DNA of 64,000 nucleotides from Acidilobaceae archaeon (GTDB taxonomy: Archaea > Thermoproteota > Thermoprotei_A > Sulfolobales > Acidilobaceae): assembly GCA_027037535.1 (NCBI GenBank), contig JALVZQ010000005.1, positions 124,001 through 188,000 of the forward strand. The letters are read 5' to 3'. Below are positions 26,953-31,488 of the stretch, piece after piece. The notes beneath the pieces were generated by a model, which did no database searches, was not told where the DNA came from, and saw only the letters and a list, made by a program, of their open reading frames with translations. Position 1 is the stretch's first letter, and every line of letters starts with the position of its first letter. The translations under genes and the position numbers were made by a program.

Positions 26953-27786
26953 ATGGTAGTAGACGTGATAAGAAGAATATTCTCAAAACCAGCGGCAAAG
27001 GACTGGGGCGAAGTATGGGGCGAGGTTGAAGAGCCGGGGGTCCCGAGCTTCCTAGCGCAGGACTCTCCGGCGTTCACGGAGCTTCTTACAAGACTTAAGA
27101 TGAGCCAAGAAGAGCTAGATCGTCTAAAGAGGAAGCTTGTCGATGAACTCCACAGACTAAAGGAGAGTATGATAATAGCGTTAAAGAACAATGACAAAGA
27201 CACTGCTGAGACCATAGCTGCAGATATCGTCCTCAAGAAAAAGGTACTCAAGGGAATAATAGCATATATAAAACTGCTCTCAATCATGGAGAGCAGACTA
27301 GAGACAGCAAGGACCCTCGACAACGTTACTGCCATAGCCAGATACATGGACCCGATACTCAGAGGTCTAGGAGAATACATCGAGAGCGTAAGCCCAGAAT
27401 TTGTAGCCACACTATACTCGACAAGAGACGTCGTATCACAAATCTACAGGAGCACATCAGCCCTAGCAGACACCATGCCTAGCAAGCTAAGCATAACAGA
27501 ATTTGACAGCGAGGTACGAGACCTAATCAAGCAGGCCATGGAAGAGGCCCACATAGAGAGCGAGGCTCTAGTACCCGAGGTCCCGAAAACAATAGATTAT
27601 GAAGAACTGGAAGCGAAGCTAATAGACTACATAAAGGCTAGAAACGGTATCATAAGCTTAAAAGCAGCAGCCAGAGACCTTGGCGTCTCACCAAAGGTTG
27701 TAAAGGAAGTACTCTACAGGCTGGCGTCTAAGGGTATAATAACAGTATCAAAGAATAAGGCTAATGCAGAAGCTACCCCGGCCTAA
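26953..27786 (+). CDS. cdvB: CdvB, ESCRT-III-like cell division protein
   Basis: 277 residues. An N-terminal basic amphipathic stretch leads to the helical ESCRT-III core (about 40-190), followed by a proline-containing LVPEVPKTI segment matching the MIM2 motif that docks onto the MIT domain of CdvC. A C-terminal winged helix (about 205-265, IDYIKARNGIISLKAAARDLGV) would be the CdvA-binding domain of other archaea. GGAGGTG lies upstream of the ATG. It forms an operon with cdvC. No cdvA precedes it; the 5S rRNA gene is there instead. Confidence 0.95.
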   Translation: MVVDVIRRIFSKPAAKDWGEVWGEVEEPGVPSFLAQDSPAFTELLTRLKMSQEELDRLKRKLVDELHRLKESMIIALKNNDKDTAETIAADIVLKKKVLKGIIAYIKLLSIMESRLETARTLDNVTAIARYMDPILRGLGEYIESVSPEFVATLYSTRDVVSQIYRSTSALADTMPSKLSITEFDSEVRDLIKQAMEEAHIESEALVPEVPKTIDYEELEAKLIDYIKARNGIISLKAAARDLGVSPKVVKEVLYRLASKGIITVSKNKANAEATPA

Positions 27787-27827
27787 CACAAAGACAAACA
27801 ATACTAGGCGGGCCGGGGTGAAGAACG

Positions 27828-28994
27828 ATGAACCACGCGGTAAACGAGCTCAGCAAGAATTATAGAAAGTGCATGAGGGCACACCTACAAGCAGAAAACA
27901 ACGGCGACTACGATATAGCATATAAAAAACTCAAGGAAGCAATAGAAATACTAGAAGATATCGTTAAGAACTTCCCAGACTATCCAATGATCCATATTTA
28001 TAGGAGGGAACTTCAGCGACTCTACGCTAAGAAAAAGAAAATGGAGAAACGAATGGTAATGATCAGTGCACAAGACGATGAAGAATACAGAGTGGAATTT
28101 AAGCCAGGGCCAGCTCCCTCCAGCAACAACGATAACCCGGAGCTACCGGATTTCGTAGAGGTAGGAGCAAATGCATCAATAAGATTCGAAGATATAGCAG
28201 GACTAGAACATGCTAAAGAAGCCATAAGAGAATCAATAATATACCCTATAAAGGAACCAGACCTATTCCCACTAGGATGGCCTAGAGGAATACTACTCTA
28301 CGGACCTCCAGGAACAGGCAAGACAATGTTAGCTGCTGCAGTCGCAAACGAGGTAGACGGAGAGTTCCTATATGTCGATGCCGCGGGGATCATGAGTAAA
28401 TGGCTAGGAGAAGGAGAGAAAAACGTGAAAAAACTCTTCAGATACGCCAGAAAAAAGGCCAGTGAAGGTACTCCTGTAATAATATTCATCGACGAAATAG
28501 ACGCTCTACTCGGAGTACACTCGACCGAAGTAGGAGGAGAAGTGAGAGTAAGGAACCAGTTCCTAAAAGAAATGGATGGTCTCCAAGACAAGGGATCAAA
28601 AATACACGTATATGTTATAGGAGCAACCAATAAGCCATGGAAACTGGACGAACCATTCATTAGAAGATTCCAGAAAAGAATATACGTCCCGCTACCCGAC
28701 AAGGAGGCAAGAATACAACTACTCAAAATGCTCACAAGTAAACTCCACTTAGCGGATGATGTAGACATAGAGAAACTAGCCGAAGAACTAGAAGGCTATA
28801 GTGCCAGCGACATAAAGGACATCGTAACCGATGCCCATCTCAGAACAATAAGAGAATACTTCAAAACAGGCAATGGTCCAAGACCCGTATCCATGAAAGA
28901 CTTCGAAGAAGTACTGAAGAAGCGGAAACCCAGCGTAGACAAGAACATGCTAAGACTCTACGAGGAATGGACCAAGCAACATGGAGCCTACTAA
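27828..28994 (+). CDS. cdvC: CdvC, Vps4-like AAA ATPase
   Basis: 388 residues: an N-terminal MIT three-helix bundle (about 1-75), a linker, then the AAA domain. The Walker A motif is GPPGTGKT, Walker B IIFIDEID, sensor 1 VIGATNKPW and the arginine finger region RRFQKRIYVPLP. It disassembles CdvB-type filaments during cell division. GGGGTG stands before the ATG, 41 bases after the cdvB stop. Confidence 0.96.
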   Translation: MNHAVNELSKNYRKCMRAHLQAENNGDYDIAYKKLKEAIEILEDIVKNFPDYPMIHIYRRELQRLYAKKKKMEKRMVMISAQDDEEYRVEFKPGPAPSSNNDNPELPDFVEVGANASIRFEDIAGLEHAKEAIRESIIYPIKEPDLFPLGWPRGILLYGPPGTGKTMLAAAVANEVDGEFLYVDAAGIMSKWLGEGEKNVKKLFRYARKKASEGTPVIIFIDEIDALLGVHSTEVGGEVRVRNQFLKEMDGLQDKGSKIHVYVIGATNKPWKLDEPFIRRFQKRIYVPLPDKEARIQLLKMLTSKLHLADDVDIEKLAEELEGYSASDIKDIVTDAHLRTIREYFKTGNGPRPVSMKDFEEVLKKRKPSVDKNMLRLYEEWTKQHGAY

Positions 28995-29017: not shown

Positions 29018-29923
29018 TTACTCCTTAAATGCAACTACCCCCAACACCTCCTCCACCCTATTCAGAACCTTTGAAAAACCCACGCTCTTTAACCTCGACG
29101 CTACTCGGCCCGGGAAGTTCCCTTTCCTCTTTTTCCCAGGGTTCCCCGTATAATGGAACAAAACGCCTCCTGGTTTCAGTACCCTGTACAACTCTCGGTA
29201 GAATTTGCTACCGTATAGGTCTCCTGTCTCTGTAGATATTCTTGGAGGATCGTGGATAATTTTATCAAAGAAATTATCTGGAAACCCGCGTATAATCCTC
29301 GTAACATCGCCTTTAATAGTCGTGATACTGTCCCGATCCAGCTCCCAGCTCCAGGGATTCTGTTCAGCGATATCTATAACGTTTGGATCTATCTCCACTG
29401 TATAAACACGAAGAGCTCCTCGCTTAGCGCTCCAAATCGCCGTGTATCCAAGCCCCATACAAGTATCGAGTACTATGTCGCCTCTCCTTATCCTAGCAGC
29501 CCGTATTTTCTGTATGGTGTCTTGCCTTGGATCCGAATTCCATATCCTATGCATGTGTATGCCTGATATCTCTAGGGAAGGATAGCTCGTTGGAACAGTA
29601 GGCAGTAGTTTATAATATTTCTCAGACCTGATCTCAACAGTAGAGACGCCCTCGTCTGAGACAACATACATTTTCTCCCAGTCGATCTCAGTTTTGTCGA
29701 AAACACCGGGATCTATTCTAACAAAATAGCCTCTACATATCCCATCTAGGATTCTTGCCTCTATGTATTTGTCAGCCCTCTTTATTCCTATTTTCATGCG
29801 TCCGTGTCCTGCCTTCAAAGCTGCTTCAGATTTATCGACCATGTATATGAAACGTTCTAACTCCCAAGGAGCCATAACGATAGCGCATCGTGGCTTGAAA
29901 TCGTAAATGTATTCTTCTATCAT
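29018..29923 (-). CDS. SAM-dependent methyltransferase
   Basis: 301 residues. A class I Rossmann methyltransferase core occupies about residues 135-300, with motif I VLDTCMGLGYTAI, an acidic residue after strand beta-2 (YTVEIDPNVI), DVTRI and motif IV HDPPR. The N-terminal 130 residues form a separate beta-rich domain. DPP(R) resembles the DPPY-type motif of enzymes that act on exocyclic amines or RNA bases, but the substrate is unknown. Its start region overlaps an AT-rich divergent promoter shared with the acidic-protein gene. Confidence 0.8.
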   Translation of the reverse strand: MIEEYIYDFKPRCAIVMAPWELERFIYMVDKSEAALKAGHGRMKIGIKRADKYIEARILDGICRGYFVRIDPGVFDKTEIDWEKMYVVSDEGVSTVEIRSEKYYKLLPTVPTSYPSLEISGIHMHRIWNSDPRQDTIQKIRAARIRRGDIVLDTCMGLGYTAIWSAKRGALRVYTVEIDPNVIDIAEQNPWSWELDRDSITTIKGDVTRIIRGFPDNFFDKIIHDPPRISTETGDLYGSKFYRELYRVLKPGGVLFHYTGNPGKKRKGNFPGRVASRLKSVGFSKVLNRVEEVLGVVAFKE

Positions 29924-30013
29924 GGCGTTTTACGCCTCTATCTTTTTAACCTCTCCAGTATGATAGATGGTATCTGGAGACAGGAGAAATATAGTTGTAT
30001 AAGGGTGATAATA

Positions 30014-30193
30014 ATGATAGTATTCTGGGAAGAGGAAGAGGAACTAGAACTCGAAGAGGAAGAATTCTGGGAAGAAGATGATTACGAAGAAGAACTTTTA
30101 GAGGAAATAGACGAGGAAGAACTTGAAGAAATAGAGGAAGAAGAGCTCTGGGAAGAGGAAGAAGAGATAGATGAGTGGGAGGAAGAAGAGTAG
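30014..30193 (+). CDS. Extremely acidic Glu-rich small protein
   Basis: 59 residues from MIVFWEEEEELELEEEEFW, with 36 Glu and 4 Asp, no Lys, Arg or His, and aromatic or aliphatic residues spaced among the acids (four Trp). AGGGTGA lies upstream of the ATG, and an AT-rich promoter is present. The other two frames lack the regularity, and GAA and GAG codons are mixed rather than forming a pure DNA repeat, which argues for selection on the protein. It could act as a nucleic-acid mimic or bind metals or basic proteins. It ends five bases before the convergent methylthiotransferase gene. Confidence 0.6.
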   Translation: MIVFWEEEEELELEEEEFWEEDDYEEELLEEIDEEELEEIEEEELWEEEEEIDEWEEEE

Positions 30194-30198
30194 TGTAC

Positions 30199-31488
30199 TC
30201 ATAATATTTTTCCGCGTAAATCGAAGAACGAATTATCTATTATCTCTACTTTAACAGGCTTCCTTGGCGGTTCTCCATTATTATAGTCGACCATCACTGG
30301 GAAATAATTATGTATACGAGCAGTATATTTATCTCCTCTAAAAGACTTTGATACTATAACTGCATAGACGATCCTTCCTACATAGCTACCATAAATCTCT
30401 TCTCCTATAGCTTCAATTAGCTTAGTCAAAACCTTGCTTCTCTCTTTCTTTACTCGATCGGATATTTGTCTCATGGACGCAGCCTTGGTATGCGGCCTTA
30501 TACTATACTGGGCTAAATGTACTCTTTCAAACCTAAGCTTCCTGACTAGTTCTATTGTTTCCTGGAAGTCCTCGTTAGTTTCTCCTGGATGACCAACTAT
30601 TATGTCTGTAGCGAACAGCGAATCAGGATAATGCTTCTTAATAGATCCATGGAGATCCTCGTACTCTTCCCTCGTATACCTCCTTCCCATTATACGGAGA
30701 ACCCTATTGGATCCCGACTGAACCGGTATATGGAAGAACTTGAACACACGATTATCATTATAGGCTTCTATAAGATCGTCAATTATCCTCATCGCTTCTT
30801 CTGGAGTCATCATACCTATTCTGATAAAATACTCGCCGGGAACTTTGTCGAGAATCATATGCACCAGATCCGCAACGTTAATCTTGCCCGGCAAATCTAC
30901 ACCATATGCCCCTGTATCAGTGCCGGTGAGCCTGATCTCTAATGCTCCTTTCTCGACCGATCTTTTAACTTGCTCTATTATTACCCTAGGAGGATAACTC
31001 TTTGGAGCCCCCCTGGCTAGCTTTGTTATACAATAGGAGCACTTGTTTCTACATCCCTCCTGGATCATTATGGTTGCAATTCTACCTTTGACTGGCATAT
31101 AGGCGTGGATTCTAGTATCCCTTTCTCTAGATAAGTATGTGACAGAATCCCTTGATTCTACTGCTTCAAGTATCCTGGGAGAGTTTTGAGGCGAAAGTAA
31201 TGAGGCTTTCCCCGCAACACGCTTAATTAGACCTGGTCTAGCCGACGCTAGGCATCCCGCAACTACTAATTTTGCTCTCGGATTAATCTTCTGGAGTCGT
31301 ACTAGACGCTCGGCTATTTTCTGCTCTGTGTCTAGTCTCACGGCACAAGTATTCACAATTATTACTTCTGCGCTTGAAGGATCGTTTAGATTCTGGAAAC
31401 CTCTATTTCTAAGTATTTCTTCCATCATTAGGCTCTCGTACTGGGCTAGAGCGCATCCATACGTCTCCATATAGTAGGTTTTCTTCAT
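30199..31488 (-). CDS. tRNA t6A37 methylthiotransferase (archaeal/CDKAL1-type MtaB)
   Basis: 429 residues of the MiaB/RimO/MtaB radical-SAM family. The N-terminal UPF0004 domain carries the cluster-binding cysteines (in YGCALAQYES, VNTCAVR and AGCLAS), the radical-SAM motif is CRNKCSYCITK, and the end is a TRAM RNA-binding domain (about 370-429). The archaeal/eukaryotic branch converts t6A37 to ms2t6A in tRNAs reading ANN codons. It is monocistronic and divergent from the aIF2-beta gene. Confidence 0.9.
   Translation of the reverse strand: MKKTYYMETYGCALAQYESLMMEEILRNRGFQNLNDPSSAEVIIVNTCAVRLDTEQKIAERLVRLQKINPRAKLVVAGCLASARPGLIKRVAGKASLLSPQNSPRILEAVESRDSVTYLSRERDTRIHAYMPVKGRIATIMIQEGCRNKCSYCITKLARGAPKSYPPRVIIEQVKRSVEKGALEIRLTGTDTGAYGVDLPGKINVADLVHMILDKVPGEYFIRIGMMTPEEAMRIIDDLIEAYNDNRVFKFFHIPVQSGSNRVLRIMGRRYTREEYEDLHGSIKKHYPDSLFATDIIVGHPGETNEDFQETIELVRKLRFERVHLAQYSIRPHTKAASMRQISDRVKKERSKVLTKLIEAIGEEIYGSYVGRIVYAVIVSKSFRGDKYTARIHNYFPVMVDYNNGEPPRKPVKVEIIDNSFFDLRGKIL

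Follow-up and report, generated by a model that had tools for sequence, protein, structure and literature searches.

A candidate family of archaeal glutamate/tryptophan microproteins repeatedly encoded just upstream of the ribosome-recycling ATPase ABCE1

ABCE1, the ATPase that splits and recycles ribosomes, is highly conserved in archaea and eukaryotes. To our knowledge, it is still open which factor loads Fe-S clusters onto the archaeal enzyme. The trigger that releases ABCE1 is treated as unresolved in the accessible text of a study on the archaeal 30S-ABCE1 complex (PMC7196836). An acidic accessory element of a nucleic-acid enzyme has been described in Sulfolobus, where PBP1 (SSO0150), a small subunit of the PolB1 holoenzyme, has an acidic tail in which 12 of 19 residues are Glu; according to the available part of the report, this tail lets the enzyme recycle faster and restrains strand displacement, post-burst synthesis being 25- to 30-fold faster (PMC5418573). 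Here, we describe a small Glu/Trp-rich open reading frame (ORF), recognized by ORF calling, composition and relatives, at positions 30014–30193 (+) of a 64,000-nucleotide stretch of DNA from an Acidilobaceae archaeon (the window), and compare it with these and other systems.

Read from its ATG to its TAG codon, the ORF encodes a protein of 59 residues (MIVFWEEEEELELEEEEFWEEDDYEEELLEEIDEEELEEIEEEELWEEEEEIDEWEEEE), composed of 36 Glu, 4 Asp, 4 Trp, 2 Phe, 1 Tyr, 6 Leu, 4 Ile, 1 Met and 1 Val, with the Trp, Phe, Tyr, Leu and Ile residues spaced between acidic runs; Lys, Arg and His are absent from all 59 residues. The 40 acidic and zero basic residues reported in an initial annotation of this DNA were thus confirmed, and the ribosome-binding site it had claimed corresponds to a Shine-Dalgarno-like GGTGAT (30004–30009, +), located by eye 4 nt 5' of the ATG. 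A putative TATA-box-like element, GAAATATAG (29986–29994, +), likewise read by eye, may provide the gene with a promoter of its own within the divergent intergenic region. The frame is open as far upstream as 29960 (77 aa). Initiation at 30014 or very near it is supported by a relative from the same genus (genome G038), whose open frame begins VIIMIIFWEEEEE. GAA and GAG codons are intermixed in the ORF, as had been noted earlier in arguing against a simple DNA repeat; TRF detected only a weak 24-nt period with 2.4 copies, so that the ORF is no clean tandem repeat, and third-position changes dominate among its relatives.

The G038 relative shares 95% identity with the window protein over all 59 residues in a protein search. 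The outcome expected of an unstable repeat, namely no homologue and variable length in close strains, did therefore not occur, and the view of the ORF as a genuine conserved protein held. The proposed search for homologues succeeded in part: BLAST yielded one same-genus relative of equal length, whereas the open frames vary from 44 to 89 aa between genera of the window's family (f1). Bacterial loci were dropped, and 28 independent pairs of close relatives were compared among the archaeal members of the family; of their 181 nucleotide differences, 159 fell at codon position 3, and positions 1 and 2 accounted for 16 and 6, respectively. In GAA/GAG codons, 127 changes were synonymous and 7 non-synonymous, and none of the changes in these pairs converted a Glu codon to Lys or Gly. 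As an unconstrained purine tract would yield Lys and Gly changes as easily as GAA/GAG swaps, selection acts at the protein level; the gene is coding and under strong purifying selection. A tandem-repeat origin, for which the TRF signal was weak, is contradicted by the substitution pattern in these pairs.

The microprotein gene is widespread in the phylum. BLAST over 48 f1 genomes matched only the window's own copy (G000) and G038, and degenerate DNA patterns were used in place of sequence search for distant relatives. A W-E4-[DE] pattern matched 19 of the 48 f1 genomes and 130 of 214 genomes of the window's order, the reversed control matching about 32 by our reading of the table. With the stricter W[DE]3-gap-W[DE]3 pattern, 164 of 397 phylum genomes matched versus about 10 for its reversal (our count from the table); none of the matching genomes belonged to families f15 and f30. 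A scan of GTDB contigs gave at least 117 matching stretches, most with archaeal and some with bacterial titles, the archaeal ones listed comprising Desulfurococcales, Sulfolobales, Bathyarchaeota, Thermofilum, Brockarchaeota, Calditenuaceae and others as well as one Asgard record, and 14 stretches of a viral contig collection matched the double pattern.

The proteins begin with a short hydrophobic segment, followed by Glu/Asp runs punctuated by Trp (or Phe/Leu/Tyr), and in most lineages they end in a free acidic-acidic-Trp/Phe C-terminus; typical members are MIWLEEEWWEEEEEEEWEEEEEWWEEEEEW (locus L114), MIFEEEEDLWEEEEDWDEEEEDLWEEEEEEW (L140) and MFEEEWEEEWEEEWEEEEWEEEW (L373). Being a small ORF with punctuated Glu/Asp runs and almost no Lys/Arg in its tail, the window ORF is probably a member of what appears to be a cryptic family of archaeal Glu/Trp (E/W) microproteins; for sequences of such low complexity, alignment cannot prove homology. 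The window protein belongs to no Pfam, NCBIfam or PHROGs family, and a PDB profile search with it gave 0 matches. No description of such a protein was found in the literature searched, which lies outside subscription papers and preprints, where literal Glu/Trp strings matched no paper either, and the accessible text of a paper on the S. solfataricus 30S subunit mentions none (PMC11698992). Tryptic proteomics would hardly detect these proteins, since their tails have almost no Lys/Arg.

E/W tails were also seen fused to N-terminal Cys-rich domains (L234:5622-5843, L235:2676-2960, L211:1258-1512 and L450:2220-2450), some of them weakly LysW-like, and the tail therefore looks like a reusable module. 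Bacterial proteins of about 75 aa (L188 and L196, titled Anaerolineales; L224, titled Chloroflexi; and L242) combine a Cys-containing N-terminal domain with a W/E acidic tail ending in DEF. Three further bacterial pattern matches (L155, L203 and L241), two of them titled Martelella, share a short, apparently repeated WEEEE..HRPI..G.LGGGG element.

In the window, the gene lies between a divergent class I methyltransferase gene (29018–29923, −; TRM5/TYW2-type and Methyltransf_11/25 Pfam matches), conserved beside the microprotein in f1, and a convergent gene for an e-MtaB-like radical SAM methylthiotransferase (30199–31488, −; TIGR01578 above cut-off), which is 5 nt away from the microprotein stop codon. 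Via this neighbourhood, acidic Glu/Trp/Phe ORFs were found at the same site in other f1 genera. Across 21 f1 loci from 20 genomes, a count that omits G026 (L041; a pattern match with no clear ORF), the convergent e-MtaB gene is present in 16 and the divergent methyltransferase gene in 17; at least one of the two adjoins the gene in 20, the locus in G033 being the sole exception with neither. In G035, the microprotein and e-MtaB occur together on two different contigs (L046 and L059), as duplication or a mixed assembly would explain. Immediately upstream of the methyltransferase gene, the window encodes, at 26953–28994 (+), a CdvB/ESCRT-III-like ORF (our reading) and a Vps4-like AAA ATPase. A link to Cdv cell division based on these CdvB/CdvC-like genes was considered and rejected, as the microprotein gene sits elsewhere outside f1.

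The microprotein is repeatedly encoded just upstream of ABCE1. When its neighbours were clustered, ABCE1, identified by its Fer4_RLI and ABC domains, came out on top. In five families of the window's order (f6, f7, f8, f9 and f11), the microprotein gene is found upstream of ABCE1 on the same strand, with gaps of about 20–50 nt in f9 among the matches listed; in f3, again among the matches listed, it mostly occupies the strand opposite ABCE1, with a gene for a TFS-like Zn-ribbon protein in between. Outside the order, 36 of 76 genomes carry an E/W block that shares its strand with ABCE1 and precedes the ABCE1 Fe-S motif by 109–440 nt, these 76 being the non-order genomes among the matches listed rather than all that match. 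The pattern search behind these 76 genomes ignores ABCE1, two pattern matches without Glu runs (G479 and G422) were removed before positions were compared, and in any one genome this placement would arise by chance with a probability of about 2 in 10,000. Because related genomes are not independent, a count by family is fairer, and 15 of the 25 families represented by these listed genomes include at least one with the linkage. Of the remaining listed genomes, 35 show no block beside ABCE1, some of them being drafts with the two on different contigs, and 5 yielded no ABCE1.

Two samples drawn from ABCE1 outwards, both rich in lineages without the microprotein, contained it in 9 of 30 loci, including a few short Tsr3-like matches, and in 4 of 40 upstream regions. 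From this rarity, and from its absence in f15 and f30, it follows that ABCE1 has no general need for the microprotein. In the Thermoproteaceae-like family f21, the microprotein precedes a SAM-decarboxylase gene, and at other loci it is found near AbrB/PhoU-type regulators, an aminoacyl-tRNA synthetase and others. In six Thermoproteaceae-like loci (L384, L390, L392, L395, L401 and L407), it lies near one of two SAM-decarboxylase paralogues. A TFS-like Zn-ribbon protein of about 95–110 aa, scoring below the TFS cut-off, is often encoded between the microprotein and ABCE1 (e.g. L114:3528-3854, −; L190:5812-6105, +) and is possibly a second ABCE1-linked factor.

The window's family departs from this arrangement. 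In the window's genome, ABCE1 resides on another contig (C8), and the 2 kb upstream of it hold no E/W ORF; none was found upstream of ABCE1 in any of the eight f1 regions examined, and in five of these eight genomes (G000, G031, G039, G007 and G024) the gene is located at the f1 site instead. We treat the f1 gene as belonging, by inferred descent, to the same family as the ABCE1-linked microproteins, alignment alone being no proof for such sequences, because the f1 site and the ABCE1 site exclude each other, the composition is shared and a genome usually has just one locus. Being located away from ABCE1 and next to a convergent neighbour, the f1 gene would have to act in trans there.

The C-terminus is conserved in a manner that depends on lineage. 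Among 100 non-redundant tails, 62 end in Trp and 15 in Phe, compared with 13.5% Trp at internal positions (binomial p ~3e-29 for terminal Trp, relatedness ignored). Positions −2 to −4 are almost always Glu/Asp, position −3 being Glu in 91 tails, Asp in 8 and Trp in 1. A terminal Trp is present in 36 of 44 ABCE1-linked members and in 35 of 47 unlinked members outside f1; near-identical tails were dropped from the 100-tail set and from this comparison, and bacterial loci from the latter. In f1, 0 of 13 tails end in Trp and 10 end in Glu, and the window protein itself ends EEEE. A conserved free terminal residue suggests that the finished peptide may be what is recognized, and thereby speaks against a pure leader-peptide role.

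We tentatively propose that E/W microproteins are acidic-aromatic accessory peptides of ABCE1 and ribosome recycling and probably mimic RNA, a partner and a mechanism that we infer. Acting in trans on the ABCE1 recycling pathway, the peptide would most likely imitate an RNA backbone with its Glu runs, while the Trp residues would supply affinity; it would bind ABCE1 or the site of ABCE1 on the 30S subunit and assist either the loading of ABCE1 onto the small subunit or its release, by analogy to the acidic tail of PBP1 that speeds PolB1 recycling. In f1, where the gene lies away from ABCE1 and the terminal Trp is missing, such a role would follow from descent. Action in trans is favoured because the next downstream gene is convergent in f1 and f3, and because the microprotein gene is missing upstream of ABCE1 in the five f1 genomes in which it occupies the f1 site. 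An RNA-mimicking competitor is favoured because the PBP1 tail speeds a nucleic-acid enzyme in the same archaea, and because release of ABCE1 from 30S has no known archaeal trigger. Among the roles suggested in the initial annotation (nucleic-acid mimicry, chaperoning of basic proteins or cation binding), the first would fit the ABCE1 linkage best. We count against our proposal that the E/W block is not beside ABCE1 in 35 of the 76 genomes among the matches listed, that it precedes a SAM-decarboxylase gene in f21 and has other neighbours elsewhere, that sampling from ABCE1 outwards recovers it rarely, and that the window's own gene is not beside ABCE1 and encodes no terminal Trp. AlphaFold2 modeled the window protein alone, from one sequence, as helices with a mean pLDDT of 70.1, an output that we distrust for poly-Glu; a read-through fusion of microprotein and ABCE1 showed no docking, with residues 1–53 below a pLDDT of 50 and most of ABCE1 above 90.

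A more far-reaching version, which we consider rather unlikely, is that the phylum possesses a dedicated ABCE1 assistant, a Glu/Trp microprotein of 20–60 aa that uses its free C-terminal Trp to recruit the machinery of Fe-S assembly or of ribosome release. It would be a minimal equivalent, independent in origin, of eukaryotic Yae1-Lto1 (or eIF3j), and would have been overlooked because its small size and low complexity put it out of reach of gene finders, BLAST and tryptic proteomics.

The chief rival to RNA mimicry is a role as Fe-S targeting adaptor for ABCE1, akin to Yae1-Lto1, in which the conserved C-terminal Trp would dock on a factor of archaeal Fe-S assembly and the acidic body would keep hold of apo-ABCE1 until it has received its two 4Fe-4S clusters. 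The genomic coupling to ABCE1 would fit such an adaptor, as would the Trp/Phe end of 77 of the 100 tails behind acidic residues, and in f1 the neighbouring gene encodes e-MtaB, a radical SAM enzyme in its own right. In the accessible text on the eukaryotic system, Lto1 depends on its C-terminal Trp for binding to the CIA targeting complex, and Rli1/ABCE1 is the client that the adaptor specifically serves (PMC4523923). However, the eukaryotic [LIM]-[DES]-[WF] motif is missing, position −3 being Glu, Asp or Trp in all 100 tails; archaeal orthologues of several CIA clients lack the motif according to the available part of another report (PMC10623007); and no f1 tail ends in Trp although f1 ABCE1 also needs clusters. 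Overall, we regard an adaptor role as unlikely.

Quite unlikely, too, is a general polyanion that is not specifically tied to ABCE1 and instead buffers cations or polyamines or chaperones basic proteins. The amino-acid composition, the patchy distribution and the SAM-decarboxylase neighbour in f21 would agree with it, but it leaves both the recurrent adjacency to ABCE1 (15 of 25 families among the matches listed) and the conserved aromatic C-terminus unexplained.

We consider it doubtful that the ORF serves in cis as a leader peptide, whose Glu runs would pause or destabilize the translating ribosome, sense recycling capacity or ribosome stability (Mg2+, polyamines) and thereby set the expression of the downstream gene, which is that of ABCE1 or, in Thermoproteaceae, of SAM decarboxylase. 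Early acidic runs pause or destabilize bacterial ribosomes and are used by the MgtL leader, as stated in the accessible text (PMC11282234), and the same-strand position just upstream of ABCE1 in 36 of 76 genomes among the matches listed, as well as that before SpeD paralogues in f21, would suit such a device. This placement is found in ABCE1-linked lineages but not in the window, where the next gene is the convergent e-MtaB gene; in f1 and f3 generally, a convergent next gene leaves nothing to lead. Moreover, a close convergent gene adjoins 27 of the 47 unlinked members outside f1, yet Trp-ended peptides persist, and all three stop codons are used among E/W members. That the ORF is not a gene but an unstable purine-rich repeat open by chance, as its purine-rich sequence, 24-nt periodicity over 2.4 copies and differing length among genera might hint, is exceedingly improbable given the excess of third-position changes, the lack of Glu-to-Lys/Gly changes and the retention of the gene beside the methyltransferase or e-MtaB gene in 20 of 21 f1 loci.

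If coupled to ABCE1, the conserved microprotein would offer a direct genetic handle in Sulfolobus. The case further illustrates that a protein family written in nearly two letters can hide from annotation, as it offers no Lys/Arg to trypsin, little score to BLAST and no family model.

Compared by description, the window protein and PBP1 come from the same archaea and share a Glu-rich stretch (36 Glu of 59 residues in the former). In PBP1, however, an N-terminal metal-binding domain (Zn-finger Cys) does the binding, whereas the window protein is free-standing, with no Cys in 59 residues. With Lto1 of Yae1-Lto1, the E/W microproteins share the link to ABCE1 and a conserved C-terminal Trp/Phe in most archaeal members; they differ in that E/W tails lack a hydrophobic −3 residue, and the window protein has neither a terminal aromatic residue nor glycine, and hence no deca-GX3 motif. 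The N-terminus of eIF3j/Hcr1 is acidic and contains Trp. Like the role proposed here, that of eIF3j/Hcr1 is to assist ABCE1 in recycling, as covered in the available text of PMC7196836, but it is a larger protein and was compared by description. A likeness to the amino-group carriers LysW/ArgW lies in the few E/W tails (L211, L234 and L235) fused to LysW-like Zn ribbons, all below the curated LysW cut-offs; the window protein, in contrast, has no Zn ribbon (0 Pfam and 0 NCBIfam families). LysW/ArgW proteins carry an EDWGE-type end, which the window protein lacks. The eukaryotic DSS1/SEM1, a very small, acidic and disordered protein with conserved aromatic residues, is an accessory peptide of larger machines, its composition being less extreme. 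We rate the E/W microproteins as new as a protein family, while the principle of an acidic-aromatic tail has precedents.
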